Source: a virus
Virus record (IMG/VR): IMGVR_UViG_3300046170_000519
Span: 141,858 to 205,857 of that record
Reading direction: 5' to 3' (one strand)
Length of the DNA stretch: 64,000 nt
Shown here: positions 2,222-23,846 of the stretch, piece by piece
How positions within the stretch are numbered: the stretch's first letter is position 1
Layout: every line of letters begins with the position of its first letter
Translations under genes and position numbers: made by a program
Notes under the pieces: generated by a model
Told to the model about the DNA's origin: nothing
What the model saw: only the letters and a program-made list of their open reading frames with translations
Database searches by the model: none

Positions 2222-5200
2222 TTAGTTCGTACAGTTGTATAAAATTTCGTAATTAAAAGTTGTGGAATAAATAGTCGTTAAACCATTTGTTGTAGTTATG
2301 GTATTTTCGCTGTAAGAAATAGAGGTTTCAATCAAATAAGATTCGATACCATCTCTAGATCCACATAAGTTTATAACATCTTTTTCTGTTGGAGCCCTAG
2401 GATCTAAGCTGGGATGTTGAGAAGAACTCTGTTGTGTATTGCTGATTTCGAATGTACTATAATTAGAGGAAGATGGATCTAATACAGGAATAGCTTTAGG
2501 AACATTAAGAACATTATGGTGGCAAGGAGAATCTTGAACGCAATCACTACATTTCGAATCATTCAAGCAAGCTGTAATTGAAACTTTATGATAACCATCT
2601 TTTTCAAAATCTATAGTATAATACTCTAAATTGAAATCAGAAGTTGATGTTGGCGTTGATTCATGATGCGGTAATTCTATATTAAAATTATATTTTTCAT
2701 AATTATTAGATTTTACTTCTTTTATTAAATTAGATGTATTATTTTCATATACTTTTATATCCGCTTCATCAATGGCATTTAAATCTCCATCATGAAATAA
2801 TCCGTAGTAGTAACTTTTATCTTCTACGTCCATAGTTCCATCACAAATACTGCAAGCTTCGGAATTAGAAAGGATTGGTAATAAATCAGTAAAGTGATAT
2901 TGATTATTATAATCTTTTCCAAAAAATCTTACATGTAAAGAAGCTTGAGAATAAGGTATAAATGCTGCAGCTCCTCGATTCGCCGCAACTTTTAATAGTC
3001 GAGGATATGATATATCAGTTGAAGTATGCTGTAATACTCCGTTAAAAGCTGGCGAACCATACACTCTAAATGGATTTGAATTATTAACAAAAACGATTAA
3101 ACCTGGATTTCCTCCAGCATTAATGCATATAACATTACTGATTGAGACTCCTTGAAGAGGAGAATCACACTCAACATACATTTCTAAAGGTAATTCTTCT
3201 GATGGAGTTGGGGTATGAGTGTCTGTGTCTGTTAATGTAGTAGTCGGAGTTTCACAAGAAACACAGCATTGATCGCAAGAATCTTGTGGGTAAACATCAT
3301 TAGCTTTAGGAGTATCAGTTGAATCTGCAGGAATAACTTTATTAATTAATAAATTATTGTTAAATTCCTGAGAATTTTTGAATTGACCTGCAGAACCTCC
3401 ACAAGAAGAAGCTGAAACCGCATTACAGAAAGAAACATCAACTTGAGAGTCAAATACATAACATTTAGAGGTTGAGAAATCTTTAATAACACTTGGGAAA
3501 TCAGCATAAGATTCAACTCCTATATAAGCTGGTAATGTAGCAGAAAGGCAGTTGCTAGGCTCAGAACCATCTCCACAGGTGTATGAGCAACTAATATACT
3601 TACCGCAGAGTCCAAAGCCACAAGTCTCAGTTTCAGTTTGAGTCTGAGTTTCTGTCTCTGTTGCTGTTTGAGTCTGAGTTTCTGTCTCTGTTGCTGTTTG
3701 AGTCTGAGTTTCTGTCTCTGTTGCTGTCTGAGTCTGAGTTCTTGTTTGAGTGTTTGTAGCTGTCTGGGTCTCAACCTCTGTTTCTGTCTCTGTCTCGGTT
3801 TGAGTGTTTGTTGATGTCTCGGTCTGAGTTCGTGTTTGAGTCTTTGTTACTGTCTGGGTCTCAGTCTCTGTTTCAGTCTCTGTCTCGGTCTGAGTTTGTG
3901 TTTGAGTCTTTGTTGCTGTCTGGGTCTCAGTCTCTGTTTCAGTCTCTGTCTCGGTCTGAGTTTGTGTTTTAGTCTGAGTCTGAGTTTCTGTCTCGGTCTG
4001 AGTTTGTGTTTGAGTCTTTGTTGCTGTCTGGGTCTCAGTCTCTGTTTCAGTCTCTGTCTCGGTCTGAGTTTGTGTTTCAGTCTGAGTCTGAGTTTCTGTC
4101 TCGGTCTGAGTTCGTGTTTGAGTCTTTGTTGCTGTCTGGGTCTCAGTCTCTGTTTCAGTCTCTGCCTCGGTCTGAGTTTGTGTTTCAGTCTGAGTTTGTG
4201 TTTCAGTCTGAGTCTGAGTTTCTGTCTCGGTCTGAGTTCGTGTTTGAGTCTTTGTTGCTGTCTGGGTCTCAGTCTCTGTTTCAGTCTCTGTCTCGGTCTG
4301 AGTTTGTGTTTCAGTCTGAGTCTGAGTTTCTGTCTCGGTCTGAGTTCGTGTTTGAGTCTTTGTTGCTGTCTGGGTCTCAGTCTCTGTTTCAGTCTCTGTC
4401 TCGGTCTGAGTTTGTGTTTCAGTCTGAGTCTGAGTTTCTGTCTCGGTCTGAGTCTGAGTTTCTGTCTCGGTCTGAGTCTGAGTTTCTGTCTCGGTCTGAG
4501 TCTGAGTTTGTGTTTCTGTCTCGGTCTGAGTCTGAGTTTGTGTTTCTGTCTCGGTCTGAGTCTGAGTTTCTGTCTCGGTCTGAGTCTGAGTTTGTGTTTC
4601 AGTCTGAGTTTGTGTTTCTGTCTCGGTCTGAGTTTGTGTTTCTGTCTCGGTCTGAGTCTGAGTTTCTGTCTCGGTCTGAGTCTGAGTTTGTGTTTCAGTC
4701 TGAGTCTGAGTTTGTGTTTCAGTCTGAGTCTGAGTTTGTGTTTCAGTCTGAGTCTGAGTTTGTGTTTCAGTCTGAGTCTGAGTTTCAGTAAAGGTATTTG
4801 TTTCAGTCTGAGTCTCTGTTTCAGTCTCTGTCTCGGTCTGAGTTTGTGTTTCAGTAAAGGTATTTGTTTCAGTCTGAGTCTGAGTTTCTGTCTCGGTCTG
4901 AGTCTGGGTTTCTGTCTCGGTCTGAGTCTGAGTTTCTGTTTCAGTCTGAGTCTGAGTTTGTGTTTCAGTCTGAGTCTGAGTTTCTGTTTCAGTCTGAGTC
5001 TGAGTTTCTGTTTCAGTCTGAGTCTGAGTTTCAGTAAAGGTATTTGTTTCAGTCTGAGTCTGAGTTTCTGTCTCGGTCTGAGTCTGAGTTTGTGTTTCAG
5101 TCTGAGTCTGAGTTTCTGTCTCGGTCTGAGTCTGAGTTTGTGTTTCAGTCTGAGTCTGAGTCTCTGTTTCAGTCTGAGTCTGAGTTTCTGTCTCGGTCTG

Positions 5201-7626
5201 AGTCTGGGTTTCTGTCTCGGTCTGAGTCTGAGTCTCTGTTTCAGTCTGAGTCTGAGTTTCTGTCTCGGTCTGAGTCTGAGTTTGTGTTTCTGTCTCGGTC
5301 TGAGTCTGAGTTTCTGTCTCGGTCTGAGTCTGAGTTTCTGTTTCAGTCTGAGTCTGAGTTTCTGTTTCAGTCTGAGTCTGAGTCTGAGTTTGTGTTTCAG
5401 TAAAGGTATTTGTTTCAGTCTGAGTCTGAGTTTCTGTCTCGGTCTGAGTCTGAGTTTGTGTTTCTGTCTCGGTCTGAGTCTGAGTTTCTGTCTCGGTCTG
5501 AGTCTGAGTTTGTGTTTCTGTCTCGGTCTGAGTCTGAGTTTGTGTTTCTGTCTCGGTCTGAGTCTGAGTTTCTGTCTCGGTCTGAGTCTGAGTTTGTGTT
5601 TCTGTCTCGGTCTGAGTCTGAGTTTGTGTTTCTGTCTCGGTCTGAGTCTGAGTTTGTGTTTCTGTCTCGGTCTGAGTCTGAGTTTGTGTTTCTGTCTCGG
5701 TCTGAGTCTGAGTTTGTGTTTCTGTCTCGGTCTGAGTCTGAGTCTCTGTTTCAGTCTCTGTCTCGGTCTGAGTTTGTGTTTCAGTCTGAGTCTGAGTTTC
5801 TGTCTCGGTCTGAGTCTGAGTTTCTGTCTCGGTCTGAGTCTGAGTTTCTGTCTCGGTCTGAGTCTGAGTTTGTGTTTCTGTCTCGGTCTGAGTCTGAGTT
5901 TGTGTTTCTGTCTCGGTCTGAGTCTGAGTTTCTGTCTCGGTCTGAGTCTGAGTTTGTGTTTCAGTCTGAGTTTGTGTTTCTGTCTCGGTCTGAGTTTGTG
6001 TTTCTGTCTCGGTCTGAGTCTGAGTTTCTGTCTCGGTCTGAGTCTGAGTTTGTGTTTCAGTCTGAGTCTGAGTTTGTGTTTCAGTCTGAGTCTGAGTTTG
6101 TGTTTCAGTCTGAGTCTGAGTTTGTGTTTCAGTCTGAGTCTGAGTTTCAGTAAAGGTATTTGTTTCAGTCTGAGTCTCTGTTTCAGTCTCTGTCTCGGTC
6201 TGAGTTTGTGTTTCAGTAAAGGTATTTGTTTCAGTCTGAGTCTGAGTTTCTGTCTCGGTCTGAGTCTGGGTTTCTGTCTCGGTCTGAGTCTGAGTTTCTG
6301 TTTCAGTCTGAGTCTGAGTTTGTGTTTCAGTCTGAGTCTGAGTTTCTGTTTCAGTCTGAGTCTGAGTTTCTGTTTCAGTCTGAGTCTGAGTTTCAGTAAA
6401 GGTATTTGTTTCAGTCTGAGTCTGAGTTTCTGTCTCGGTCTGAGTCTGAGTTTGTGTTTGAGTCTGAGTCTGAGTTTCTGTCTCGGTCTGAGTCTGAGTT
6501 TGTGTTTCAGTCTGAGTCTGAGTCTCTGTTTCAGTCTGAGTCTGAGTTTCTGTCTCGGTCTGAGTCTGGGTTTCTGTCTCGGTCTGAGTCTGAGTCTCTG
6601 TTTCAGTCTGAGTCTGAGTTTCTGTCTCGGTCTGAGTCTGAGTCTGAGTTTCTGTCTCGGTCTGAGTCTGAGTTTCTGTCTCGGTCTGAGTCTGAGTTTC
6701 TGTCTCGGTCTGAGTCTGAGTTTCTGTTTCAGTCTGAGTCTGAGTTTCTGTTTCAGTCTGAGTCTGAGTCTGAGTTTGTGTTTCAGTAAAGGTATTTGTT
6801 TCAGTCTGAGTCTGAGTTTCTGTCTCGGTCTGAGTCTGAGTTTGTGTTTCTGTCTCGGTCTGAGTCTGAGTTTGTGTTTCTGTCTCGGTCTGAGTTTCTG
6901 TCTCGGTCTGAGTCTGAGTTTCTGTCTCGGTCTGAGTCTGAGTTTGTGTTTCTGTCTCGGTCTGAGTCTGAGTTTCTGTCTCGGTCTGAGTCTGAGTTTG
7001 TGTTTCTGTTTCAGTCTGAGTTTGTGTTTCTGTCTCGGTCTGAGTCTGAGTCTGAGTTTCTGTTTCAGTCTGAGTCTGAGTTTCTGTCTCGGTCTGAGTC
7101 TGAGTTTCTGTTTCAGTCTGAGTCTGAGTTTCTGTCTCGGTCTGAGTCTGAGTCTGAGTTTCTGTCTCGGTCTGAGTTTGTGTTTCTGTCTCGGTCTGAG
7201 TCTGAGTTTCTGTCTCGGTCTGAGTCTGAGTTTGTGTTTCAGTCTGAGTCTGAGTTTGTGTTTCAGTCTGAGTCTGAGTTTGTGTTTCAGTCTGAGTCTG
7301 AGTTTGTGTTTCAGTCTGAGTCTGAGTTTCAGTAAAGGTATTTGTTTCAGTCTGAGTCTCTGTTTCAGTCTCTGTCTCGGTCTGAGTTTGTGTTTCAGTA
7401 AAGGTATTTGTTTCAGTCTGAGTCTGAGTTTCTGTCTCGGTCTGAGTCTGGGTTTCTGTCTCGGTCTGAGTCTGAGTTTCTGTTTCAGTCTGAGTCTGAG
7501 TTTGTGTTTCAGTCTGAGTCTGAGTTTCTGTCTCGGTCTGAGTCTGAGTTTGTGTTTCAGTCTGAGTTTGTGTTTCTGTCTCGGTCTGAGTTTGTGTTTC
7601 TGTCTCGGTCTGAGTCTGAGTTTCTG
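2222..7626 (-). CDS. C-terminal part of giant TET-repeat fibre (start not in this frame)
   Basis: The frame closed at 2,222 is open far beyond its first Met (3,181): codon by codon it runs without a stop through 3,628 into the TET repeat and stays in the TET phase up to 7,626. The product is therefore a stalk of about 1,330 alternating-Thr residues, then a Cys-rich domain (codons about 3,627-3,260, starting [19 protein letters not shown]), a second Thr-Pro linker (about 3,260-3,195), and a final domain of about 320 residues ending at 2,222. The Cys pairs suggest disulfide-stabilised or metal-binding tips. At 7,626/7,627 a 10-base loss shifts the repeat out of phase, so no start codon connects in this sequence. 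Most likely this is the receptor-binding tip of the protein that starts at 22,887. The short 319-codon reading starting at 3,181 is not the real gene start. Confidence 0.65.
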
Positions 7627-10217
7627 AGTCTGAGTTTGTGTTTGAGTCTGAGTCTGAGTTTCTGTCTCGGTCTGAGTCTGAGTTTGTGTTTCAGTCTGAG
7701 TCTGAGTCTCTGTTTCAGTCTGAGTCTGAGTTTCTGTCTCGGTCTGAGTCTGGGTTTCTGTCTCGGTCTGAGTCTGAGTCTCTGTTTCAGTCTGAGTCTG
7801 AGTTTCTGTCTCGGTCTGAGTCTGAGTCTGAGTTTCTGTCTCGGTCTGAGTCTGAGTTTCTGTCTCGGTCTGAGTCTGAGTTTCTGTTTCAGTCTGAGTC
7901 TGAGTTTCTGTTTCAGTCTGAGTCTGAGTCTGAGTTTGTGTTTCAGTAAAGGTATTTGTTTCAGTCTGAGTCTGAGTTTCTGTCTCGGTCTGAGTCTGAG
8001 TTTGTGTTTCTGTCTCGGTCTGAGTCTGAGTTTGTGTTTCTGTCTCGGTCTGAGTTTCTGTCTCGGTCTGAGTCTGAGTTTCTGTCTCGGTCTGAGTCTG
8101 AGTTTGTGTTTCTGTCTCGGTCTGAGTCTGAGTTTCTGTCTCGGTCTGAGTCTGAGTTTGTGTTTCTGTTTCAGTCTGAGTTTGTGTTTCTGTCTCGGTC
8201 TGAGTCTGAGTCTGAGTTTCTGTTTCAGTCTGAGTCTGAGTTTCTGTCTCGGTCTGAGTCTGAGTTTCTGTTTCAGTCTGAGTCTGAGTTTCTGTCTCGG
8301 TCTGAGTCTGAGTCTGAGTTTCTGTCTCGGTCTGAGTCTGAGTCTGAGTTTCTGTTTCGGTCTGAGTCTGAGTTTCTGTCTCGGTCTGAGTCTGAGTCTG
8401 AGTTTGTGTTTCAGTAAAGGTATTTGTTTCAGTCTGAGTCTGAGTTTCTGTCTCGGTCTGAGTCTGAGTCTGAGTTTCTGTCTCGGTCTGAGTCTGAGTC
8501 TCTGTTTGAGTCTGAGTACCAGTTTCTGTTTCAGTCTGAGTCTGAGTTTGTGTTTCAGTCTGAGTCTGAGTCTGAGTTTCTGTTTCAGTCTGAGTCTGAG
8601 TTTCTGTCTCGGTCTGAGTCTGAGTCTGAGTTTGTGTTTCAGTAAAGGTATTTGTTTCAGTCTGAGTCTGAGTTTCTGTCTCGGTCTGAGTCTGAGTTTG
8701 TGTTTCTGTCTCGGTCTGAGTCTGAGTTTGTGTTTCTGTCTCGGTCTGAGTCTGAGTTTGTGTTTCTGTCTCGGTCTGAGTCTGAGTTTGTGTTTCTGTC
8801 TCGGTCTGAGTCTGAGTTTGTGTTTCTGTCTCGGTCTGAGTCTGAGTTTGTGTTTCTGTCTCGGTCTGAGTCTGAGTTTGTGTTTCTGTCTCGGTCTGAG
8901 TCTGAGTCTCTGTTTCAGTCTCTGTCTCGGTCTGAGTTTGTGTTTCAGTCTGAGTCTGAGTTTCTGTCTCGGTCTGAGTCTGAGTTTCTGTCTCGGTCTG
9001 AGTCTGAGTTTCTGTCTCGGTCTGAGTCTGAGTTTCTGTCTCGGTCTGAGTCTGAGTTTCTGTCTCGGTCTGAGTCTGAGTTTGTGTTTCTGTCTCGGTC
9101 TGAGTCTGAGTTTGTGTTTCTGTCTCGGTCTGAGTCTGAGTTTCTGTCTCGGTCTGAGTCTGAGTTTGTGTTTCAGTCTGAGTTTGTGTTTCTGTCTCGG
9201 TCTGAGTTTGTGTTTCTGTCTCGGTCTGAGTTTGTGTTTCTGTCTCGGTCTGAGTCTGAGTTTCTGTCTCGGTCTGAGTCTGAGTTTGTGTTTCAGTCTG
9301 AGTCTGAGTTTGTGTTTCAGTCTGAGTCTGAGTTTGTGTTTCAGTCTGAGTCTGAGTTTGTGTTTCAGTCTGAGTCTGAGTTTCAGTAAAGGTATTTGTT
9401 TCAGTCTGAGTCTCTGTTTCAGTCTCTGTCTCGGTCTGAGTTTGTGTTTCAGTAAAGGTATTTGTTTCAGTCTGAGTCTGAGTTTCTGTCTCGGTCTGAG
9501 TCTGGGTTTCTGTCTCGGTCTGAGTCTGAGTTTCTGTTTCAGTCTGAGTCTGAGTTTGTGTTTCAGTCTGAGTCTGAGTTTCTGTTTCAGTCTGAGTCTG
9601 AGTTTCTGTTTCAGTCTGAGTCTGAGTTTCAGTAAAGGTATTTGTTTCAGTCTGAGTCTGAGTTTCTGTCTCGGTCTGAGTCTGAGTTTGTGTTTCAGTC
9701 TGAGTCTGAGTTTCTGTCTCGGTCTGAGTCTGAGTTTGTGTTTCAGTCTGAGTCTGAGTCTCTGTTTCAGTCTGAGTCTGAGTTTCTGTCTCGGTCTGAG
9801 TCTGGGTTTCTGTCTCGGTCTGAGTCTGAGTCTCTGTTTCAGTCTGAGTCTGAGTTTCTGTCTCGGTCTGAGTCTGAGTTTGTGTTTCTGTCTCGGTCTG
9901 AGTCTGAGTTTCTGTCTCGGTCTGAGTCTGAGTTTCTGTTTCAGTCTGAGTCTGAGTTTCTGTTTCAGTCTGAGTCTGAGTCTGAGTTTGTGTTTCAGTA
10001 AAGGTATTTGTTTCAGTCTGAGTCTGAGTTTCTGTCTCGGTCTGAGTCTGAGTTTGTGTTTCTGTATCGGTCTGAGTCTGAGTTTCTGTCTCGGTCTGAG
10101 TCTGAGTTTGTGTTTCTGTCTCGGTCTGAGTCTGAGTTTGTGTTTCTGTCTCGGTCTGAGTCTGAGTTTCTGTCTCGGTCTGAGTCTGAGTCTGAGTTTG
10201 TGTTTCAGTAAAGGTAT

Positions 10218-11096
10218 TTGTTTCAGTCTGAGTCTGAGTTTCTGTCTCGGTCTGAGTCTGAGTTTGTGTTTCTGTCTCGGTCTGAGTCTGAGTTTGTGTT
10301 TCTGTCTCGGTCTGAGTCTGAGTTTGTGTTTCTGTCTCGGTCTGAGTCTGAGTTTGTGTTTCTGTCTCGGTCTGAGTCTGAGTTTCTGTCTCGGTCTGAG
10401 TCTGAGTTTGTGTTTCAGTCTGAGTTTGTGTTTCTGTCTCGGTCTGAGTTTGTGTTTCTGTCTCGGTCTGAGTCTGAGTTTCTGTCTCGGTCTGAGTCTG
10501 AGTTTGTGTTTCAGTCTGAGTCTGAGTTTGTGTTTCAGTCTGAGTCTGAGTTTGTGTTTCAGTCTGAGTCTGAGTTTGTGTTTCAGTCTGAGTCTGAGTT
10601 TCAGTAAAGGTATTTGTTTCAGTCTGAGTCTCTGTTTCAGTCTCTGTCTCGGTCTGAGTTTGTGTTTCAGTAAAGGTATTTGTTTCAGTCTGAGTCTGAG
10701 TTTCTGTCTCGGTCTGAGTCTGGGTTTCTGTCTCGGTCTGAGTCTGAGTTTCTGTTTCAGTCTGAGTCTGAGTTTGTGTTTCAGTCTGAGTCTGAGTTTC
10801 TGTTTCAGTCTGAGTCTGAGTTTCTGTTTCAGTCTGAGTCTGAGTTTCAGTAAAGGTATTTGTTTCAGTCTGAGTCTGAGTTTCTGTCTCGGTCTGAGTC
10901 TGAGTTTGTGTTTGAGTCTGAGTCTGAGTTTCTGTCTCGGTCTGAGTCTGAGTTTGTGTTTCAGTCTGAGTCTGAGTCTCTGTTTCAGTCTGAGTCTGAG
11001 TTTCTGTCTCGGTCTGAGTCTGGGTTTCTGTCTCGGTCTGAGTCTGAGTCTCTGTTTCAGTCTGAGTCTGAGTTTCTGTCTCGGTCTGAGTCTGAG
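10218..11096 (-). repeat. Long direct repeat, copy 1 of pair at offset 7,995
   Basis: This segment of about 880 bp recurs at 18,213-19,091. The order of repeat words is the same, including two punctuation words, a gagtctggg variant and a tttgagtctgag variant at the same spacing. The offset is a multiple of three, so both copies are in the same TET phase. A related pair links 5,044-5,403 with 9,642-10,001 (offset 4,598). Confidence 0.75.
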
Positions 11097-13724
11097 TCTG
11101 AGTTTCTGTCTCGGTCTGAGTCTGAGTTTCTGTCTCGGTCTGAGTCTGAGTTTCTGTTTCAGTCTGAGTCTGAGTTTCTGTTTCAGTCTGAGTCTGAGTC
11201 TGAGTTTGTGTTTCAGTAAAGGTATTTGTTTCAGTCTGAGTCTGAGTTTCTGTCTCGGTCTGAGTCTGAGTTTGTGTTTCTGTCTCGGTCTGAGTCTGAG
11301 TTTGTGTTTCTGTCTCGGTCTGAGTTTCTGTCTCGGTCTGAGTCTGAGTTTCTGTCTCGGTCTGAGTCTGAGTTTGTGTTTCTGTCTCGGTCTGAGTCTG
11401 AGTTTCTGTCTCGGTCTGAGTCTGAGTTTGTGTTTCTGTTTCAGTCTGAGTTTGTGTTTCTGTCTCGGTCTGAGTCTGAGTCTGAGTTTCTGTTTCAGTC
11501 TGAGTCTGAGTTTCTGTCTCGGTCTGAGTCTGAGTTTCTGTTTCAGTCTGAGTCTGAGTTTCTGTCTCGGTCTGAGTCTGAGTTTCTGTCTCGGTCTGAG
11601 TCTGAGTTTCTGTCTCGGTCTGAGTCTGAGTTTCTGTCTCGGTCTGAGTCTGAGTTTCTGTCTCGGTCTGAGTCTGAGTTTCTGTCTCGGTCTGAGTCTG
11701 AGTTTCTGTCTCGGTCTGAGTCTGAGTTTGTGTTTCTGTCTCGGTCTGAGTCTGAGTTTGTGTTTCTGTCTCGGTCTGAGTCTGAGTCTGAGTTTGTGTT
11801 TCAGTCTGAGTCTGAGTTTCTGTCTCGGTCTGAGTCTGAGTCTGAGTTTGTGTTTCAGTCTGAGTCTGAGTTTCTGTTTCAGTAAAGGTATTTGTTTCAG
11901 TCTGAGTCTGAGTTTCTGTCTCGGTCTGAGTCTGAGTTTGTGTTTCTGTCTCGGTCTGAGTCTGAGTTTGTGTTTCTGTCTCGGTCTGAGTCTGAGTTTG
12001 TGTCTCGGTCTGAGTCTGAGTTTGTGTTTCTGTTTCAGTCTGAGTTTGTGTTTCTGTCTCGGTCTGAGTTTGAGTTTGTGTTTCTGTCTCGGTCTGAGTC
12101 TGAGTCTGAGTTTCTGTTTCAGTCTGAGTCTGAGTTTGTGTTTCTGTCTCGGTCTGAGTCTGAGTTTCTGTCTCGGTCTGAGTCTGAGTTTGTGTTTCTG
12201 TCTCGGTCTGAGTCTGAGTTTGTGTTTCTGTTTCAGTCTGAGTCTGAGTTTCAGTAAAGGTGTTTGTTCAGTCTGAGTCTGAGTTTGTGTCTCAGTCTGA
12301 GTCGCTGTTCAGTCTCTGTTTCAGTCTGAGTCTGAGTCTGAGTTTGTGTTTCATGTCTCGGTCTGAGTCTGAGTTTCTGTCTCGGTCTGAGTCTGAGTTT
12401 GTGTTTCTGTTTCAGTCTGAGTTTGTGTTTCTGTCTCTGTCTGAGTCTGAGTTTGTGTTTCAGTCTGAGTCTGAGTTTCTGTCTCGGTCTGAGTCTGAGT
12501 TTCTGTCTCGGTCTGAGTCTGAGTTTGTGTTTCAGTCTGAGTTTGTGTTTCTGTCTCGGTCTGAGTCTGAGTTTGTGTTTCAGTCTGAGTCTGAGTTTCT
12601 GTTTCAGTCTGAGTCTGAGTTTCTGTCTCGGTCTGAGTCTGAGTTTCTGTCTCGGTCTGAGTCTGAGTTTCTGTCTCGGTCTGAGTCTGAGTCTGAGTCT
12701 GAGTTTCTGTCTCGGTCTGAGTCTGAGTTTGTGTTTCAGTAAAGGTATTTGTTTCAGTCTGAGTCTGAGTTTCTGTTTCAGTCTGAGTCTGAGTCTGAGT
12801 TTGTGTTTCAGTAAAGGTATTTGTTTCAGTCTGAGTCTGAGTTTCTGTCTCGGTCTGAGTCTGAGTTTGTGTTTCTGTCTCGGTCTGAGTCTGAGTTTCT
12901 GTCTCGGTCTGAGTCTGAGTTTCTGTCTCGGTCTGAGTCTGAGTTTCTGTTTCAGTCTGAGTCTGAGTTTCTGTCTCGGTCTGAGTCTGAGTTTCTGTTT
13001 CAGTCTGAGTCTGAGTTTCTGTCTCGGTCTGAGTCTGAGTCTGAGTTTCTGTCTCGGTCTGAGTCTGAGTCTGAGTTTCTGTCTCGGTCTGAGTCTGAGT
13101 TTGTGTTTCAGTCTGAGTCTGAGTTTGTGTCTCGGTCTGAGTCTGAGTCTGAGTTTCTGTTTCAGTCTGAGTCTGAGTCTGAGTTTGTGTTTCAGTCTGA
13201 GTCTGAGTTTCTGTTTCAGTCTGAGTCTGAGTTTCTGTCTCGGTCTGAGTCTGAGTTTCTGTCTCGGTCTGAGTCTGAGTTTCTGTCTCGGTCTGAGTCT
13301 GAGTTTCTGTTTCAGTCTGAGTCTGAGTTTCTGTCTCGGTCTGAGTCTGAGTTTGTGTTTCAGTCTGAGTCTGAGTTTGTGTTTCAGTCTGAGTCTGAGT
13401 CTGAGTTTGTGTTTCTGTTTCAGTCTGAGTTTCTGTCTCGGTCTGAGTCTGAGTTTCTGTCTCGGTCTGAGTCTGAGTTTCTGTCTCGGTCTGAGTCTGA
13501 GTTTCTGTCTCGGTCTGAGTCTGAGTTTGTGTTTCTGTTTCAGTCTGAGTTTGTGTTTCTGTCTCGGTCTGAGTCTGAGTTTCTGTCTCGGTCTGAGTCT
13601 GAGTCTGAGTTTCTGTTTCAGTCTGAGTCTGAGTTTCTGTTTCAGTCTGAGTCTGAGTTTGTGTTTCAGTAAAGGTATTTGTTTCAGTCTGAGTCTGAGT
13701 TTCTGTCTCGGTCTGAGTCTGAGT

Positions 13725-14680
13725 TTGTGTTTCTGTCTCGGTCTGAGTCTGAGTTTGTGTTTCTGTCTCGGTCTGAGTCTGAGTTTGTGTTTCTGTCTCG
13801 GTCTGAGTCTGAGTTTGTGTTTCTGTCTCGGTCTGAGTCCGAGTTTGTGTTTCTGTTTCAGTCTGAGTTTCTGTCTCGGTCTGAGTTTCTGTCTCGGTCT
13901 GAGTCTGAGTTTGTGTTTCTGTCTCGGTCTGAGTCTGAGTTTCTGTCTCGGTCTGAGTCTGAGTTTGTGTTTCTGTTTCAGTCTGAGTTTGTGTTTCAGT
14001 CTGAGTCTGAGTTTCTGTCTCGGTCTGAGTCTGAGTTTGTGTTTCTGTTTCAGTCTGAGTTTGTGTTTCTGTCTCGGTCTGAGTCTGAGTTTCTGTCTCG
14101 GTCTGAGTCTGAGTTTGTGTTTCTGTTTCAGTCTGAGTTTGTGTTTCTGTCTCGGTCTGAGTCTGAGTTTCTGTCTCGGTCTGAGTCTGAGTTTGTGTTT
14201 CTGTTTCAGTCTGAGTTTGTGTTTCTGTCTCGGTCTGAGTCTGAGTCTGAGTTTCTGTCTCGGTCTGAGTCTGAGTTTCTGTTTCAGTCTGAGTCTGAGT
14301 TTCTGTCTCGGTCTGAGTCTGAGTCTGAGTTTCTGTCTCGGTCTGAGTCTGAGTTTCTGTCTCGGTCTGAGTTTGTGTTTCAGTCTGAGTCTCTGTTTCA
14401 GTCTCTGTTTCAGTCTGAGTCTGAGTTTGTGTTTCTGTCTCGGTCTGAGTCTGAGTTTCTGTCTCGGTCTGAGTCTGAGTTTGTGTTTCTGTTTCAGTCT
14501 GAGTTTGTGTTTCTGTCTCGGTCTGAGTCTGAGTTTCAGTAAAGGTATTTGTTTCAGTCTGAGTCTGAGTTTGTGTTTCTGTCTCGGTCTGAGTCTGAGT
14601 TTCTGTCTCGGTCTGAGTCTCAGTTTGTGTTTCTGTCTCGGTCTGAGTCTGAGTTTCTGTCTCGGTCTGAGTCTGAGTTT
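13725..14680 (-). repeat. Long direct repeat, copy 1 of pair at offset 5,776
   Basis: This segment recurs at about 19,501-20,456. The match is anchored by two rare variants, gagtccgag at 13,835 and gagtctcag at 14,615. Both recur exactly 5,776 bases later, at 19,611 and 20,391, which shows a segmental duplication and not just shared word use. The two copies lie in different TET phases because of the indels between them. Ends are approximate. Confidence 0.8.
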
Positions 14681-16281
14681 CTGTCTCGGTCTGAGTCTGA
14701 GTTTGTGTTTCTGTCTCGGTCTGAGTCTGAGTCTGAGTTTCTGTTTCAGTCTGAGTCTGAGTTTGTGTTTCTGTCTCGGTCTGAGTCTGAGTTTCAGTAA
14801 AGGTATTTGTTTCAGTCTGAGTCTGAGTCTGAGTTTGTGTTTCAGTAAAGGTATTTGTTTCAGTCTGAGTCTGAGTTTCTGTCTCGGTCTGAGTCTGAGT
14901 TTGTGTTTCTGTCTCGGTCTGAGTCTGAGTTTGTGTTTCTGTCTCGGTCTGAGTCTGAGTTTCTGTCTCGGTCTGAGTCTGAGTTTGTGTTTCTGTTTCA
15001 GTCTGAGTTTGTGTTTCTGTCTCGGTCTGAGTCTGAGTTTGTGTTTCTGTCTCGGTCTGAGTCTGAGTTTGTGTTTCTGTCTCGGTCTGAGTCTGAGTTT
15101 GTGTTTCAGTCTGAGTCTGAGTTTCTGTCTCGGTCTGAGTCTGAGTTTCTGTCTCGGTCTGAGTCTGAGTTTGTGTTTCAGTCTGAGTTTGTGTTTCTGT
15201 CTCGGTCTGAGTCTGAGTTTGTGTTTCAGTCTGAGTCTGAGTTTCTGTTTCAGTCTGAGTCTGAGTTTCTGTTTCAGTCTGAGTCTGAGTTTCTGTCTCG
15301 GTCTGAGTCTGAGTTTCTGTCTCGGTCTGAGTCTGAGTTTCTGTCTCGGTCTGAGTCTGAGTCTGAGTCTGAGTTTCTGTCTCGGTCTGAGTCTGAGTTT
15401 GTGTTTCAGTAAAGGTATTTGTTTCAGTCTGAGTCTGAGTTTCTGTTTCAGTCTGAGTCTGAGTCTGAGTTTGTGTTTCAGTAAAGGTATTTGTTTCAGT
15501 CTGAGTCTGAGTTTGTGTTTCTGTCTCGGTCTGAGTCTGAGTTTCTGTCTCGGTCTGAGTCTGAGTTTCTGTTTCAGTCTGAGTCTGAGTTTCTGTCTCG
15601 GTCTGAGTCTGAGTTTCTGTTTCAGTCTGAGTCTGAGTTTCTGTCTCGGTCTGAGTCTGAGTCTGAGTTTCTGTCTCGGTCTGAGTCTGAGTCTGAGTTT
15701 CTGTCTCGGTCTGAGTCTGAGTTTGTGTTTCAGTCTGAGTCTGAGTTTGTGTCTCGGTCTGAGTCTGAGTCTGAGTTTCTGTTTCAGTCTGAGTCTGAGT
15801 TTGTGTTTCAGTCTGAGTCTGAGTTTCTGTTTCAGTCTGAGTCTGAGTTTCTGTCTCGGTCTGAGTCTGAGTTTCTGTCTCGGTCTGAGTCTGAGTTTCT
15901 GTCTCGGTCTGAGTCTGAGTCTGAGTTTGTGTTTCAGTAAAGGTATTTGTTTCAGTCTGAGTCTGAGTTTCTGTTTCAGTCTGAGTCTGAGTTTCAGTAA
16001 AGGTATTTGTTTCAGTCTGAGTCTCTGTTTCAGTCTCTGTCTCGGTCTGAGTTTGTGTTTCAGTCTGAGTCTGAGTTTCTGTTTCAGTCTGAGTCTGAGT
16101 TTCTGTTTCAGTCTGAGTCTGAGTTTCAGTAAAGGTATTTGTTTCAGTCTGAGTCTGAGTTTGTGTTTCTGTCTCGGTCTGAGTCTGAGTTTGTGTTTCT
16201 GTCTCGGTCTGAGTCTGAGTCTGAGTTTCTGTTTCAGTCTGAGTCTGAGTTTGTGTTTCTGTCTCGGTCTGAGTCTGAGTT

Positions 16282-19200
16282 TCAGTAACTGAGTTTCTGT
16301 CTCGGTCTGAGTCTGAGTCTGAGTTTGTGTTTCAGTAAAGGTATTTGTTTCAGTCTGAGTCTGAGTTTCTGTCTCGGTCTGAGTCTGAGTTTGTGTTTCT
16401 GTCTCGGTCTGAGTCTGAGTTTGTGTTTCTGTCTCGGTCTGAGTCTGAGTTTGTGTTTCTGTCTCGGTCTGAGTCTGAGTTTGTGTTTCTGTCTCGGTCT
16501 GAGTCTGAGTTTGTGTTTCTGTCTCGGTCTGAGTCTGAGTTTCTGTCTCGGTCTGAGTCTGAGTTTGTGTTTCAGTCTGAGTTTGTGTTTCTGTCTCGGT
16601 CTGAGTTTGTGTTTCTGTCTCGGTCTGAGTCTGAGTTTCTGTCTCGGTCTGAGTCTGAGTTTGTGTTTCAGTCTGAGTCTGAGTTTGTGTTTCAGTCTGA
16701 GTCTGAGTTTGTGTTTCAGTCTGAGTCTGAGTTTGTGTTTCAGTCTGAGTCTGAGTTTCAGTAAAGGTATTTGTTTCAGTCTGAGTCTCTGTTTCAGTCT
16801 CTGTCTCGGTCTGAGTTTGTGTTTCAGTAAAGGTATTTGTTTCAGTCTGAGTCTGAGTTTCTGTCTCGGTCTGAGTCTGGGTTTCTGTCTCGGTCTGAGT
16901 CTGAGTTTCTGTTTCAGTCTGAGTCTGAGTTTGTGTTTCAGTCTGAGTCTGAGTTTCTGTTTCAGTCTGAGTCTGAGTTTCTGTTTCAGTCTGAGTCTGA
17001 GTTTCAGTAAAGGTATTTGTTTCAGTCTGAGTCTGAGTTTCTGTTTCAGTCTGAGTCTGAGTCTGAGTTTGTGTTTCAGTAAAGGTATTTGTTTCAGTCT
17101 GAGTCTGAGTTTGTGTTTCTGTCTCGGTCTGAGTCTGAGTTTCTGTCTCGGTCTGAGTCTGAGTTTCTGTTTCAGTCTGAGTCTGAGTTTCTGTCTCGGT
17201 CTGAGTCTGAGTTTCTGTTTCAGTCTGAGTCTGAGTTTCTGTCTCGGTCTGAGTCTGAGTCTGAGTTTCTGTCTCGGAGTCTGAGTCTGAGTTTCTGTCT
17301 CGGTCTGAGTCTGAGTTTGTGTTTCAGTCTGAGTCTGAGTTTGTGTCTCGGTCTGAGTCTGAGTCTGAGTTTCTGTTTCAGTCTGAGTCTGAGTTTGTGT
17401 TTCAGTCTGAGTCTGAGTTTCTGTTTCAGTCTGAGTCTGAGTTTCTGTCTCGGTCTGAGTCTGAGTTTCTGTCTCGGTCTGAGTCTGAGTTTCTGTCTCG
17501 GTCTGAGTCTGAGTCTGAGTTTGTGTTTCAGTAAAGGTATTTGTTTCAGTCTGAGTCTGAGTTTCTGTTTCAGTCTGAGTCTGAGTTTCAGTAAAGGTAT
17601 TTGTTTCAGTCTGAGTCTCTGTTTCAGTCTCTGTCTCGGTCTGAGTTTGTGTTTCAGTAAAGGTATTTGTTTCAGTCTGAGTCTGAGTTTCTGTCTCGGT
17701 CTGAGTCTGGGTTTCTGTCTCGGTCTGAGTCTGAGTTTCTGTTTCAGTCTGAGTCTGAGTTTGTGTTTCAGTCTGAGTCTGAGTTTCTGTTTCAGTCTGA
17801 GTCTGAGTTTCTGTTTCAGTCTGAGTCTGAGTTTCAGTAAAGGTATTTGTTTCAGTCTGAGTCTGAGTTTGTGTTTCAGTCTGAGTCTGAGTTTGTGTTT
17901 CAGTCTGAGTCTGAGTTTGTGTTTCAGTCTGAGTCTGAGTTTCTGTCTCGGTCTGAGTCTGAGTTTCTGTCTCGGTCTGAGTCTGAGTTTCTGTCTCGGT
18001 CTGAGTCTGAGTCTGAGTTTCTGTCTCGGTCTGAGTCTGAGTCTCTGTTTCAGTCTGAGTCTGAGTTTGTGTTTCAGTCTGAGTCTGAGTTTCTGTTTCA
18101 GTCTGAGTCTGAGTTTCTGTCTCGGTCTGAGTCTGAGTTTCTGTCTCGGTCTGAGTCTGAGTTTCTGTCTCGGTCTGAGTCTGAGTCTGAGTTTGTGTTT
18201 CAGTAAAGGTATTTGTTTCAGTCTGAGTCTGAGTTTCTGTCTCGGTCTGAGTCTGAGTTTGTGTTTCTGTCTCGGTCTGAGTCTGAGTTTGTGTTTCTGT
18301 CTCGGTCTGAGTCTGAGTTTGTGTTTCTGTCTCGGTCTGAGTCTGAGTTTGTGTTTCTGTCTCGGTCTGAGTCTGAGTTTCTGTCTCGGTCTGAGTCTGA
18401 GTTTGTGTTTCAGTCTGAGTTTGTGTTTCTGTCTCGGTCTGAGTTTGTGTTTCTGTCTCGGTCTGAGTCTGAGTTTCTGTCTCGGTCTGAGTCTGAGTTT
18501 GTGTTTCAGTCTGAGTCTGAGTTTGTGTTTCAGTCTGAGTCTGAGTTTGTGTTTCAGTCTGAGTCTGAGTTTGTGTTTCAGTCTGAGTCTGAGTTTCAGT
18601 AAAGGTATTTGTTTCAGTCTGAGTCTCTGTTTCAGTCTCTGTCTCGGTCTGAGTTTGTGTTTCAGTAAAGGTATTTGTTTCAGTCTGAGTCTGAGTTTCT
18701 GTCTCGGTCTGAGTCTGGGTTTCTGTCTCGGTCTGAGTCTGAGTTTCTGTTTCAGTCTGAGTCTGAGTTTGTGTTTCAGTCTGAGTCTGAGTTTCTGTTT
18801 CAGTCTGAGTCTGAGTTTCTGTTTCAGTCTGAGTCTGAGTTTCAGTAAAGGTATTTGTTTCAGTCTGAGTCTGAGTTTCTGTCTCGGTCTGAGTCTGAGT
18901 TTGTGTTTGAGTCTGAGTCTGAGTTTCTGTCTCGGTCTGAGTCTGAGTTTGTGTTTCAGTCTGAGTCTGAGTCTCTGTTTCAGTCTGAGTCTGAGTTTCT
19001 GTCTCGGTCTGAGTCTGGGTTTCTGTCTCGGTCTGAGTCTGAGTCTCTGTTTCAGTCTGAGTCTGAGTTTCTGTCTCGGTCTGAGTCTGAGTTTGTGTTT
19101 CTGTCTCGGTCTGAGTCTGAGTTTGTGTTTCTGTCTCGGTCTGAGTCTGAGTTTGTGTTTCTGTTTCAGTCTGAGTTTCTGTCTCGGTCTGAGTCTGAGT

Positions 19201-22200
19201 TTCTGTCTCGGTCTGAGTCTGAGTTTCTGTCTCGGTCTGAGTCTGAGTTTCTGTCTCGGTCTGAGTTTCTGTCTCGGTCTGAGTCTGAGTTTGTGTTTCT
19301 GTCTCGGTCTGAGTCTGAGTTTGTGTTTCGGTCTGAGTCTGAGTTTGTGTTTCTGTTTCAGTCTGAGTTTGTGTTTCAGTCTGAGTCTGAGTTTCTGTCT
19401 CGGTCTGAGTCTGAGTTTGTGTTTCTGTTTCAGTCTGAGTTTGTGTTTCTGTCTCGGTCTGAGTCTGAGTTTGTGTTTCTGTCTCGGTCTGAGTCTGAGT
19501 TTGTGTTTCTGTCTCGGTCTGAGTCTGAGTTTGTGTTTCTGTCTCGGTCTGAGTCTGAGTTTGTGTTTCTGTCTCGGTCTGAGTCTGAGTTTGTGTTTCT
19601 GTCTCGGTCTGAGTCCGAGTTTGTGTTTCTGTTTCAGTCTGAGTTTCTGTCTCGGTCTGAGTTTCTGTCTCGGTCTGAGTCTGAGTTTGTGTTTCTGTCT
19701 CGGTCTGAGTCTGAGTTTCTGTCTCGGTCTGAGTCTGAGTTTGTGTTTCTGTTTCAGTCTGAGTTTGTGTTTCAGTCTGAGTCTGAGTTTCTGTCTCGGT
19801 CTGAGTCTGAGTTTGTGTTTCTGTTTCAGTCTGAGTTTGTGTTTCTGTCTCGGTCTGAGTCTGAGTTTCTGTCTCGGTCTGAGTCTGAGTTTGTGTTTCT
19901 GTTTCAGTCTGAGTTTGTGTTTCTGTCTCGGTCTGAGTCTGAGTTTCTGTCTCGGTCTGAGTCTGAGTTTGTGTTTCTGTTTCAGTCTGAGTTTGTGTTT
20001 CTGTCTCGGTCTGAGTCTGAGTCTGAGTTTCTGTCTCGGTCTGAGTCTGAGTTTCTGTTTCAGTCTGAGTCTGAGTTTCTGTCTCGGTCTGAGTCTGAGT
20101 CTGAGTTTCTGTCTCGGTCTGAGTCTGAGTTTCTGTCTCGGTCTGAGTTTGTGTTTCAGTCTGAGTCTCTGTTTCAGTCTCTGTTTCAGTCTGAGTCTGA
20201 GTTTGTGTTTCTGTCTCGGTCTGAGTCTGAGTTTCTGTCTCGGTCTGAGTCTGAGTTTGTGTTTCTGTTTCAGTCTGAGTTTGTGTTTCTGTCTCGGTCT
20301 GAGTCTGAGTTTCAGTAAAGGTATTTGTTTCAGTCTGAGTCTGAGTTTGTGTTTCTGTCTCGGTCTGAGTCTGAGTTTCTGTCTCGGTCTGAGTCTCAGT
20401 TTGTGTTTCTGTCTCGGTCTGAGTCTGAGTTTCTGTCTCGGTCTGAGTCTGAGTTTGTGTTTCTGTCTCGGTCTGAGTCTGAGTTTGTGTTTCTGTCTCG
20501 GTCTGAGTCTGAGTTTGTGTTTCAGTCTGAGTCTGAGTTTCTGTCTCGGTCTGAGTCTGAGTTTCTGTCTCGGTCTGAGTCTGAGTTTGTGTTTCAGTCT
20601 GAGTTTGTGTTTCTGTCTCGGTCTGAGTCTGAGTTTGTGTTTCAGTCTGAGTCTGAGTTTCTGTTTCAGTCTGAGTCTGAGTTTCTGTTTCAGTCTGAGT
20701 CTGAGTTTCTGTCTCGGTCTGAGTCTGAGTTTCTGTCTCGGTCTGAGTCTGAGTTTCTGTCTCGGTCTGAGTCTGAGTCTGAGTCTGAGTTTCTGTCTCG
20801 GTCTGAGTCTGAGTTTGTGTTTCAGTAAAGGTATTTGTTTCAGTCTGAGTCTGAGTTTCTGTTTCAGTCTGAGTCTGAGTCTGAGTTTGTGTTTCAGTAA
20901 AGGTATTTGTTTCAGTCTGAGTCTGAGTTTCTGTCTCGGTCTGAGTCTGAGTTTCTGTCTCGGTCTGAGTCTGAGTTTCTGTCTCGGTCTGAGTCTGAGT
21001 CTGAGTCTGAGTTTCTGTCTCGGTCTGAGTCTGAGTTTGTGTTTCAGTAAAGGTATTTGTTTCAGTCTGAGTCTGAGTTTCTGTTTCAGTCTGAGTCTGA
21101 GTCTGAGTTTGTGTTTCAGTAAAGGTATTTGTTTCAGTCTGAGTCTGAGTTTCTGTCTCGGTCTGAGTCTGAGTTTGTGTTTCTGTCTCGGTCTGAGTCT
21201 GAGTTTCTGTCTCGGTCTGAGTCTGAGTTTCTGTTTCAGTCTGAGTCTGAGTTTCTGTCTCGGTCTGAGTCTGAGTTTCTGTTTCAGTCTGAGTCTGAGT
21301 TTCTGTCTCGGTCTGAGTCTGAGTCTGAGTTTCTGTCTCGGTCTGAGTCTGAGTCTGAGTTTCTGTCTCGGTCTGAGTCTGAGTTTGTGTTTCAGTCTGA
21401 GTCTGAGTTTGTGTCTCGGTCTGAGTCTGAGTCTGAGTTTCTGTTTCAGTCTGAGTCTGAGTTTCTGTTTCAGTCTGAGTCTGAGTTTCTGTCTCGGTCT
21501 GAGTCTGAGTTTCTGTCTCGGTCTGAGTCTGAGTTTCTGTCTCGGTCTGAGTCTGAGTCTGAGTTTCTGTCTCGGTCTGAGTCTGAGTCTGAGTTTGTGT
21601 TTCAGTCTGAGTCTGAGTTTCTGTTTCAGTCTGAGTCTGAGTCTGAGTTTGTGTTTCAGTAAAGGTATTTGTTTCAGTCTGAGTCTGAGTTTCTGTTTCA
21701 GTCTGAGTCTGAGTCTGAGTTTGTGTTTCAGTAAAGGTATTTGTTTCAGTCTGAGTCTGAGTTTCTGTCTCGGTCTGAGTCTGAGTCTGAGTTTCTGTTT
21801 CAGTCTGAGTCTGAGTTTCTGTCTCGGTCTGAGTCTGAGTTTCTGTTTCAGTCTGAGTCTGAGTTTCTGTCTCGGTCTGAGTCTGAGTTTCTGTCTCGGT
21901 CTGAGTCTGAGTTTCTGTCTCGGTCTGAGTCTGAGTTTCTGTCTCGGTCTGAGTCTGAGTTTGTGTTTCTGTTTCAGTCTGAGTTTGTGTTTCTGTCTCG
22001 GTCTGAGTCTGAGTTTGTGTTTCAGTCTGAGTCTGAGTTTGTGTTTCAGTCTGAGTCTGAGTTTGTGTTTCAGTCTGAGTCTGAGTTTCTGTCTCGGTCT
22101 GAGTCTGAGTTTCTGTCTCGGTCTGAGTCTGAGTTTCTGTCTCGGTCTGAGTCTGAGTCTGAGTTTCTGTCTCGGTCTGAGTCTGAGTCTGAGTTTCTGT

Positions 22201-22887
22201 TTCAGTCTGAGTCTGAGTTTGTGTTTCAGTCTGAGTCTGAGTTTCTGTTTCAGTCTGAGTCTGAGTCTGAGTTTCTGTTTCAGTCTGAGTCTGAGTTTCT
22301 GTCTCGGTCTGAGTCTGAGTCTGAGTTTCTGTCTCGGTCTGAGTCTGAGTTTGTGTTTCAGTCTGAGTCTGAGTTTCTGTTTCAGTCTGAGTCTGAGTCT
22401 GAGTTTGTGTTTCAGTAAAGGTATTTGTTTCAGTCTGAGTCTGAGTTTCTGTCTCGGTCTGAGTCTGAGTTTCTGTCTCGGTCTGAGTCTGAGTTTGTGT
22501 TTCTGTCTCGGTCTGAGTCTGAGTTTCTGTTTCAGTCTGAGTCTGAGTTTCTGTCTCGGTCTGAGTCTGAGTTTCTGTTTCAGTCTGAGTTTGTGTTTCT
22601 GTTTCAGTCTGAGTCTCTGTTTGAGTCTGAGTACCAGTTTCTGTTTCAGTAAATGTGCTTGTCTGAGTCTCCGTTTCAGTATAAGTTACTGTAGGAGTAT
22701 ATGTATATGTTTGAGTCTGAGTCTCCGTTTCAGTATAAGTTACTGTAGGAGTATATGTATATGTTTGAGTCTGAGTCTCCGTTTCAGTATAAGTTACTGT
22801 AGGAGTATATGTATATGTATCAGTATAAGTACTAGTTTCAGTCGGAGGAGACTGTATTAATTTTGAGCGTGCAAATACCGATAACAT
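16282..22887 (-). CDS. N-terminal part of giant TET-repeat fibre
   Basis: ATG at 22,887 follows an AGGG Shine-Dalgarno-like site at 22,897-22,900. As written the product is 2,201 aa. After a very short head ([10 protein letters not shown]...) come three 18-residue units with [10 protein letters not shown], then about 1,850 residues of strict T-x-T-x repeat (TETQTQT, punctuated by NTFTE). At 17,277/17,278 four bases (TCTG of a standard unit) are missing. The reading then leaves the Thr phase and becomes an Arg/Lys/Leu/Gln-rich run that stops at 16,282. That basic tail is almost surely a frameshift product. The true protein would continue through the middle repeat to the domains ending at 2,222, giving roughly 6,890 residues. 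There is no head domain large enough to dock on a virion, so attachment must use the short N-terminus or a partner protein. Confidence 0.7.
18213..19091 (-). repeat. Long direct repeat, copy 2 of pair at offset 7,995
   Basis: This is the partner of 10,218-11,096 with the same word order. The two diverge after about 19,091, where a tttgtgtttctg word replaces a gagtctgag word. A duplication of this size cannot be bridged by short reads. Confidence 0.75.
19501..20456 (-). repeat. Long direct repeat, copy 2 of pair at offset 5,776
   Basis: This is the partner of the segment at about 13,725-14,680. It shares the rare words gagtccgag (19,611) and gagtctcag (20,391) at the same spacing. The sequence diverges after about 20,456, where one copy goes on with a ttctg word and the other with ttgtg. 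Confidence 0.8.
22669..22830 (-). repeat. Three tandem 54-bp units at fibre N-terminus
   Basis: Three in-frame copies of a 54-bp unit start at 22,669, 22,723 and 22,777, the last one diverging at its end. Each codes for an 18-residue unit of the type [18 protein letters not shown]. The Tyr/Val/Pro content differs from the Glu/Gln-only array that follows in the protein, so this is a distinct neck between the short head and the long stalk. Confidence 0.85.
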
Positions 22888-22898
22888 AGTACATAGCC

Positions 22899-23846
22899 CT
22901 AGCCTTTGACTTTGAATGTTGCAGTGTATCCAAGATTACCCGCTCCAAACTTAGGTGATTGAGATAAATATAAAGTAGCTCCCTCTACTAAAGTTAAAGG
23001 AGAGGTGAAATCAGATTTTGAGTTTTTTTCATCTAATGGGTGTGTCCATGATTTTTCTGATTTTGTTCCATCTGCAGCTGATTGATTTAATGTTATTGTT
23101 GATTCTGTATTAGAACCTCCTGTTGTAAATATAGAAGCTGTAACACTTAAAACTTTTTTGTTATGCCAGGAGGAGGGGACAACTATGATTGCATCTTCAA
23201 AATTAAAATTATCAATAAGTTCAGAAGCTGGAACATTATTTATTGCAAAATACTCTTCTTCATTGGGGTATTTTTTCCAATTAGCTTCATCACGAGTCCA
23301 GACTCCGCCGTTTCCGTTTGATTCACCTTCTACTTTATGATTAATCCAAGCATTTATTAAAGCTTGTGAAGGAGCATTATCCCCAGAAACTTGAGCATTG
23401 TACTGAGTAACAGAGATATCTCCAACAGCTGCATTATATAAAGTTTCATAATCATCAATCATAAATTGATAAGACTGGTTTTTCTCTATTACATAGACTA
23501 CCATGCCTAATTTTAAACGACCAGAACTCATTAAATCTCTGTTTAGCTCTAATAAAGCAGGAGTAGTTATTATTTCAACACAGGGAGGGACCTCATTCCT
23601 GTTACAGCTTCTTGGAACTTCTTCTGTTCCACCAGGTGTATATATTAATGGTATAAAATTAAGAGGATCATCAAGTGGAATGCCTGTGACTCCATTAGTA
23701 GTACTATAAGTAATATTGTTTAAATGATAATATTCTTGTAAACCACCAATGAGAGATGTCCCAGAAGTTACTCCAGTTTGAGAACTCATGGAAAAAGAAT
23801 CTGCAACTTGTTTTGCTGTTAAATGTATGTGATCTGAAAAACTCAT
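22899..23846 (-). CDS. Probable virion/tail-fibre structural protein
   Basis: This 315-aa protein is not recognised with certainty. It is short of Cys, has no membrane segment, and begins MSFSDHIHLTAKQVADSFS. The middle part (about residues 105-135: GRLKLGMVVYVIEKNQSYQF) resembles a pattern often seen in phage structural and fibre proteins, a Gly-Met-x-Val-x-Val run followed by a Tyr-rich strand. The C-terminal third is beta-rich with Ser/Thr/Gly and ends in a hydrophobic alternating strand. It sits immediately upstream of the giant fibre (12 nt) and just downstream of another TET-fibre gene (9 nt), so co-expression with the fibres is likely. It could be an adaptor that joins the giant fibre, which lacks a head domain, to the tail; that is inference. 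Confidence 0.55.
   Translation of the reverse strand: MSFSDHIHLTAKQVADSFSMSSQTGVTSGTSLIGGLQEYYHLNNITYSTTNGVTGIPLDDPLNFIPLIYTPGGTEEVPRSCNRNEVPPCVEIITTPALLELNRDLMSSGRLKLGMVVYVIEKNQSYQFMIDDYETLYNAAVGDISVTQYNAQVSGDNAPSQALINAWINHKVEGESNGNGGVWTRDEANWKKYPNEEEYFAINNVPASELIDNFNFEDAIIVVPSSWHNKKVLSVTASIFTTGGSNTESTITLNQSAADGTKSEKSWTHPLDEKNSKSDFTSPLTLVEGATLYLSQSPKFGAGNLGYTATFKVKG

Follow-up and report, generated by a model that had tools for sequence, protein, structure and literature searches.

The question raised by this locus is whether a minus-strand region that reads, from an ATG at 22,887 to a stop at 2,222, as a short head followed by threonine at every second residue encodes one giant fibre protein, and if so what kind of fibre this would be and how long. 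The window, i.e., the whole 64,000-nucleotide stretch of DNA analysed, is the last 64 kb of the 205,857-bp IMG/VR virus record IMGVR_UViG_3300046170_000519. This record belongs to a tailed phage, in which a large terminase, a DnaB-type helicase, a UvsX-like recombinase, RIIA and ribonucleotide reductase were found. Because a sibling contig (L287, 100% identity) spans position 64,000 of the window and continues into the first base of the record (L001:1), the genome maps as a circle and is essentially complete. The tape-measure gene of 3,497 codons spans the circular join, and the whole gene was obtained from the sibling contig. Relatives of the terminase occur on about 110 uncultured contigs, and the terminases of named phages are only about 22-25% identical to it. 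The most probable answer, to which a probability of roughly 0.6 is assigned, is that the locus is a single structural gene in an uncultured tailed phage, that its product would be an extremely long, O-glycosylated, tether-like fibre, and that the indels are assembly errors.

Architecture and constraint of the giant T-x gene

A stalk in which threonine alternates with another residue (T-x) is treated here as a module, a class defined in this analysis: Thr occupies alternate positions over at least 100 residues, in one constrained frame, between folded domains. The giant gene has this organization, with six indels in the assembly, and is composed of the following features.

2222-22887, minus strand: whole putative giant T-x fibre gene, 10.0% of the 205,857-bp genome, six indels in the assembly
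22834-22887, minus strand: N-terminal head of 18 residues, followed by the stalk
22661-22830, minus strand: neck, a 54-bp unit (18 protein letters) present three times
17287-22833, minus strand: stalk block 1, 1,849 codons, in frame with the ATG
16301-17263, minus strand: stalk block 2, 321 codons, without an in-frame start codon
12357-16277, minus strand: stalk block 3, 1,307 codons, without an in-frame start codon
12259-12356, minus strand: 98 bp of garbled sequence, with three indels plus additional mismatches, resembling an uncorrected patch
7636-12258, minus strand: stalk block 4, 1,541 codons, without an in-frame start codon
3632-7612, minus strand: stalk block 5, 1,327 codons, sharing its frame with the C-terminal domains
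3254-3625, minus strand: Cys-rich domain at the tip, a homologue of the tip in T-x stalk protein L001:5800-8757
2225-3196, minus strand: final domain of about 320 aa, with no relative found in the IMG/VR search and no confident model

One frame joins the head to the start of the stalk, and one open frame joins the last stalk block, the Cys-rich domain and the final domain. The frame blocks bear out the single T-x reading from the ATG to the stop that had been made from the sequence alone, and the six indels noticed at that time are distributed 1+1+3+1 between the five blocks. These blocks hold 6,345 stalk codons; with the gaps, the stalk comprises about 6,350-6,380 alternating residues, including ~3,170-3,190 Thr. 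The whole protein, recounted at about 6,870 residues, is close to the ~6,890 first given, but the 6,400 threonines of the same reading correspond to the number of stalk residues (~6,400), which is double the number of Thr (~3,170). An ACN codon is present at 3,168 of the 3,170 T positions, far beyond chance. Gln (1,685) and Glu (1,329) occupy the x positions, together with Asn and Phe in NTF units. At the distal end of the protein, the Cys-rich domain, which is conserved, is followed by the final domain; the model of the C-terminus is weak (mean pLDDT 39.8).

Since blocks 2-5 contain no in-frame ATG, GTG, TTG or CTG, and none of the ribosome-site motifs AGGA, AGGAG, GGAGG and GAGGA occurs in the 19-kb array, blocks 2-5 cannot start independently. 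The division into five frame blocks might suggest several separate T-x genes run together, which the sequence-only reading had named as the case that would speak against it. However, blocks 2-5 have neither a start codon in frame nor a ribosome-site motif, and the T frame contains no stop, so that the probability of separate genes is negligible.

Constraint on the T frame was assessed by comparison of repeat copies that are nearly identical over the 80 codons compared. At the T codons, 83 third-position sites were synonymous and 1 site was non-synonymous, whereas two thirds of random changes are non-synonymous under the null; the resulting P of about 1e-38 treats sites as independent and is optimistic given repeat conversion. 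Differences at the x codons were silent or Glu/Gln swaps, with few exceptions, and the T-codon pattern was the same in every frame block. Because the T codons are constrained in all blocks, the T frame has been read as protein over its full length until very recently, or is still so read. Chance or low-complexity noise was rejected by the start-codon and motif scan and by the T-codon constraint. The proposal that the region is one gene is thus supported by the lack of starts in blocks 2-5, by equal constraint on the T frame and by an intact giant T-x stalk in another phage, which is described below.

Indels and length of the array

The indels lie near 17,270, near 16,290, inside 12,356-12,259 (three) and near 7,620. 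Comparison with the remaining array copies shows four bases missing at one junction and ten at another, and one junction resembles a wrong-register join. Outside the T-x stalks, two sibling contigs of the same phage show 0 mismatches and 0 indels relative to the record over the ~80 kb compared, a comparison that excludes one piece (L291 against L003, 98.5%). Their differences from the record, as well as their ends, lie only inside T-x stalks; one sibling contig carries a T-x stalk that is 50 residues shorter, in frame, and neither reaches the giant array. Given this confinement of differences and contig ends to the stalks, with base-for-base agreement elsewhere, errors of assembly within the repeat most likely account for the six indels.

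If the indels were instead real, the gene would be broken or phase-variable, and its product would be the literal ORF from the ATG, which ends at 16,282 and encodes 2,201 aa with a Lys/Arg-rich shifted tail. The sequence as given does read so, and frameshifts in repeats are a known route of phase variation. However, the T-codon constraint is unrelaxed downstream of every indel, three of the indels crowd into 98 bp, and 0 indels in ~80 kb outside the repeats stand against six in one unpolishable repeat. Moreover, the only frameshift in a T4-like phage with a comparable stalk sits where two other assemblies stop. A gene truly interrupted by indels is therefore very improbable.

The order and length of the array are a separate matter. 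Exact internal repeats reach 982 bp, and those of 500-982 bp are present in several copies, several of them in three or more; because of the 982-bp repeats, short reads cannot order the array. A real T-x fibre gene could thus have been mis-assembled, such that its length and order differ substantially from those given and the stalk probably numbers between one and a few thousand residues, or more if the assembly collapsed copies. This possibility agrees with the fact that only 57% of the 251-mers in the array are unique, with the uncorrected appearance of the 98-bp stretch, with the junction that resembles a misjoin and with the ends of sibling contigs inside T-x stalks. On the other hand, all 1,001-mers are unique, about 13,850 distinct 251-mers survive the removal of all exact duplicates, the array is even in T frame and composition throughout, and an independent lineage has stalks about 4,000 residues long. 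Discarding all exact 251-bp duplicates as false would leave a stalk of roughly 4,600 residues, whereas a collapse of copies would mean that the true stalk is longer. Substantial mis-assembly is accordingly regarded as rather unlikely, although it carries real weight. A 32-base unit of the array occurs in no other IMG/VR contig and no second assembly of the array was found; likewise, the IMG/VR search for relatives of the neighbour P0006 gave no independent copy of the giant gene. The exact array length rests on one assembly and is hence unproven. The ease with which T-x genes are lost or broken in short-read assemblies is a warning.

T-x stalks in this genome and in other phages

The reading of the locus as one long fibre gene can be compared with its surroundings, which include the following genes.

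22899-23846, minus strand: adjacent gene for a fibre-type protein; in other phages its N-terminal domain is found at the head of T-x and SGTSG-repeat proteins
23856-25382, minus strand: intact T-x stalk gene, 508 aa
25469-28303, minus strand: intact T-x stalk gene, 944 aa, stalk of about 700
28305-30974, minus strand: intact T-x stalk gene, 889 aa, stalk of about 440
31050-32907, minus strand: two nucleotide-sugar epimerase genes by the fibre cluster, possible sugar supply
37431-39183, minus strand: UDP-sugar dehydrogenase and epimerase genes, possible sugar supply

The giant gene is carried by a tailed phage among structural genes, with TerL, the 3,497-aa tape-measure protein and the fibre-like gene cluster in one circular genome. 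Its Cys-rich domain is homologous (E 4e-10; 33% over 100 residues) to the C-terminal tip of L001:5800-8757, a paralogue encoded elsewhere by this phage, in which an intact T-x stalk of about 390 residues is fused to a structural-region protein. The paralogue gene maps to the head/tail structural region, not far from that of the terminase, at a presumed exact place. Conservation of its N-terminal 165 residues extends to about 20 phages; this head domain (fair model, pLDDT 70; no significant match in the fold search) stands alone and stalkless in distant phages, and the T-x stalk and tip have been added in the clade of this phage. The Cys-rich tip domain is located behind a T-x stalk in all seven loci in which it was found. 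Between lineages of the paralogue family, in which the heads are 59-61% alike, T is constant and x turns over, with the sets E/Q/N/S/D, I/V/T/P/A/E and S/L/H/P. Because T stays, x turns over and lengths differ, what is conserved is Thr at every second position and not a particular sequence. In the close relatives L303, L305 and L306, the lengths of the T-x stalks are about 30 residues apart, in frame, which represents natural length change.

These data bear on the earlier designation of the product as a fibre. The cluster of T-x genes, the tip shared with a structural-region protein and the T4-like stalk near baseplate genes described below all strengthen it; the absence of a recognizable N-terminal attachment domain, only 18 residues preceding the giant stalk, weakens it, whereas the neighbour at 22,899-23,846 has an attachment-type N-terminal domain. 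It is reasonable to call the giant protein fibre-like by architecture, and its membership in virion fibres is putative.

Several other repeat proteins were observed. Long SGTSGTSG repeats, with a three-residue period, are found on the same N-terminal domain as that of the neighbour in four loci (L158, L199, L173 and L245). Elsewhere in this genome, L007:10263-18839 (record 130,263-138,839) encodes an intact 2,858-residue protein with repeated Cys-rich domains and many T-x linkers, the C-terminal stretch of which matches the protease family phrog_20754 (E 1.7e-20); next to it is another giant T-rich ORF, of at least 2,264 residues. In the window, the minus-strand gene at 41246-42502 gives a weak tetraspanin-like match (E 1e-6, below the Pfam cut-off).

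A scan of IMG/VR for 50 consecutive T-x steps yielded at least 118 stretches. In the loci examined, 144 stalks were measured (median 156 residues), 72 of them in ORFs closed at both ends, the longest closed stalk being 876 residues. The longest open stalk among those measured, 4,173 residues, belongs to an unrelated T4-like lineage (G001-G003) that has a Gp23 capsid, a sheath and baseplate J, and the stalk gene adjoins baseplate genes. This ORF, with a head domain (no match among annotated phages) and a Cys-rich end, is uninterrupted and identical over 12,607 bp in three assemblies. The stalk of G002 changes frame at residue 4,199, precisely the point at which the remaining two contigs stop, and past this single break there are further T-x and Cys-rich domains. 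The TPTNTPT-type stalk gene of these contigs (L275:3400-19690 in G002, L279 and L269-L270) amounts to roughly 5,200 residues. The T4-like gene, foremost among the T-x stalk genes of other phages, is like the giant gene in plan, with a head domain, a strict T-x stalk, Cys-rich end domains and a fibre or baseplate neighbourhood; the T4-like lineage differs in that x is Pro, Asn or Val, the stalk is about 4,100 residues before the break, and there is no match to the terminase of the present phage. The giant stalk would be the longest among those measured and is of the rare Glu/Gln kind. In bacterial and archaeal genomes, a scan for stalks of the Glu/Gln type found mainly simple (TE)n or (TQ)n tracts, and mixed E/Q runs had at most 33 Thr among the matches listed. 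The T-x genes and P0006 had no match in annotated phages, and no description of phage T-x stalks was found in the literature searched, the coverage of which was incomplete. These results suggest that T-x stalks are a widespread, little-described phage class, in which alternating Thr is the sole invariant.

The same survey bears on the possibility that the stalk is a beta-structured rod (cross-beta or amyloid-like, perhaps multimeric), the Thr side chains lining one face and those of Glu/Gln the opposite one; a beta-strand or an amyloid-like rod was among the forms that the sequence alone had suggested. A beta-strand does accord with strict alternation, and the Glu/Gln version is nearly Pro-free, with Pro at 3 of the ~3,170 x positions of the giant stalk. 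However, equally strict viral T-x stalks have a median of 39% Pro at x, with at least 20% in 137 of the 144 measured among the matches listed; the orthologous stalks of the paralogue family in the clade contain Pro as well, and about 1,330 Glu would stack in register. The homologues thus do not keep beta-compatible residues at both parities, Pro being common at x. Because homologous stalks carry Pro, the rod is disfavoured and is considered unlikely, and because x tolerates Pro, Asn, Val, Glu, Gln, Ser and His, the T-x chain would not be a cross-beta design; it suits an extended chain in which the hydroxyl groups of Thr are what matters.

The proposed tether and known systems

O-glycosylation of the stalk would seem to fit the sequence better than a beta rod. 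Among the genes of this phage are those for a Fringe-like glycosyltransferase, two GT2 enzymes, three sulfotransferases and several nucleotide-sugar enzymes, and part of them lie next to the fibre cluster. The three carbohydrate-sulfotransferase-like genes and the Fringe-like glycosyltransferase gene are L003:15505-16182, L004:19122-19787, L005:678-1268 and L005:1921-2622. The T4-like lineage also encodes glycosyltransferases. Against this evidence, many phages commonly carry glycosyltransferases, the targets of which may instead be DNA or the host surface. The Thr-rich T-P linkers of bacterial cellulases are reported to be glycosylated, and most or all of their T are assumed to be mannosylated (PMC12757957). 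On the basis of the sugar enzymes, the analogy with cellulase linkers and the constancy of Thr, an O-glycosylated, mucin-like tether with a Cys-rich tip is proposed.

In the proposed fibre, a short head would be followed by a mucin-like tether of ~6,400 residues, with the Cys-rich tip and the final domain at the far end. The Thr residues would most likely bear O-linked sugars, supplied by phage or host enzymes, and glycosylation would make the chain extended, soluble and protease-resistant. The tip would be held hundreds of nanometres to about 2 micrometres off the virion and would make the first contact with host cells or surfaces, and in-frame recombination among the repeats would lengthen or shorten the stalk. 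The single constrained frame, the modular architecture, the shared tip and the intact giant stalks of other phages were observed directly; the place of the protein in the virion, its glycosylation, its role as a tether and its exact length are inferred. An extended chain measures 0.25-0.33 nm per residue. A stalk of 6,380 residues would therefore be about 1.6-2.1 micrometres long if it is a single, fully extended chain and the array length is correct, the two assumptions on which the figure of about 2 micrometres given from the sequence alone also depends; the tail is estimated at about 0.5 micrometres by applying a rule of 0.15 nm per residue to the 3,497-residue tape measure.

As judged from the sequence, the giant gene is real, constrained, of structural type and of a widespread kind, exceptional in its size and its Glu/Gln stalk, with length and intactness unproven. 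If the proposal is true, the product is among the longest proteins proposed for a virus, and a tenth of the phage genome is spent on one tether several-fold longer than the estimated tail. A broader idea, possible but doubtful, is that several unrelated kinds of phage produce mucin-like, glycosylated tethers of micrometre scale in which Thr alternates strictly; sugar and sulfate transferases encoded by the phages would coat these tethers, and in-frame repeat recombination would tune their length so as to reach distant hosts, far past the tail. Two questions thereby become testable: do phages glycosylate the fibres they make, and what distance can a virion span?

Among known systems, the linkers of cellulases (PT boxes; Celf_3184, Cfla_1986 and CelA; PMC12757957) resemble the giant stalk in having Thr/Ser at alternate positions in a spacer between domains. 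These linkers are tens of residues long, Pro-rich and part of secreted enzymes, and their glycosylation is reported or assumed, whereas the giant stalk has thousands of residues with Glu/Gln at x, is encoded by a phage and is only presumed to be glycosylated. Mucin-like domains share with it dense Thr that could bear O-glycans and stiffen an extended chain; the giant stalk differs from them in the near absence of Pro and in its strict two-residue period, and its glycans are likewise putative. The hairy-capsid jumbo phage PTm1 was considered as a known carrier and was ruled out because it has no T-x stalk. Long tail fibres of jumbo phages, the whiskers of jumbo phage CBB (PMC5259590), the genes for which are not identified in that report, and the capsid hairs of PTm1 (PMC13282480) are, like the giant stalk, very long, thin appendages with a proposed role in host contact, but the appendages of jumbo phages, such as the CBB whiskers of about 119 nm (PMC5259590), fall far below the possible reach of the giant stalk.
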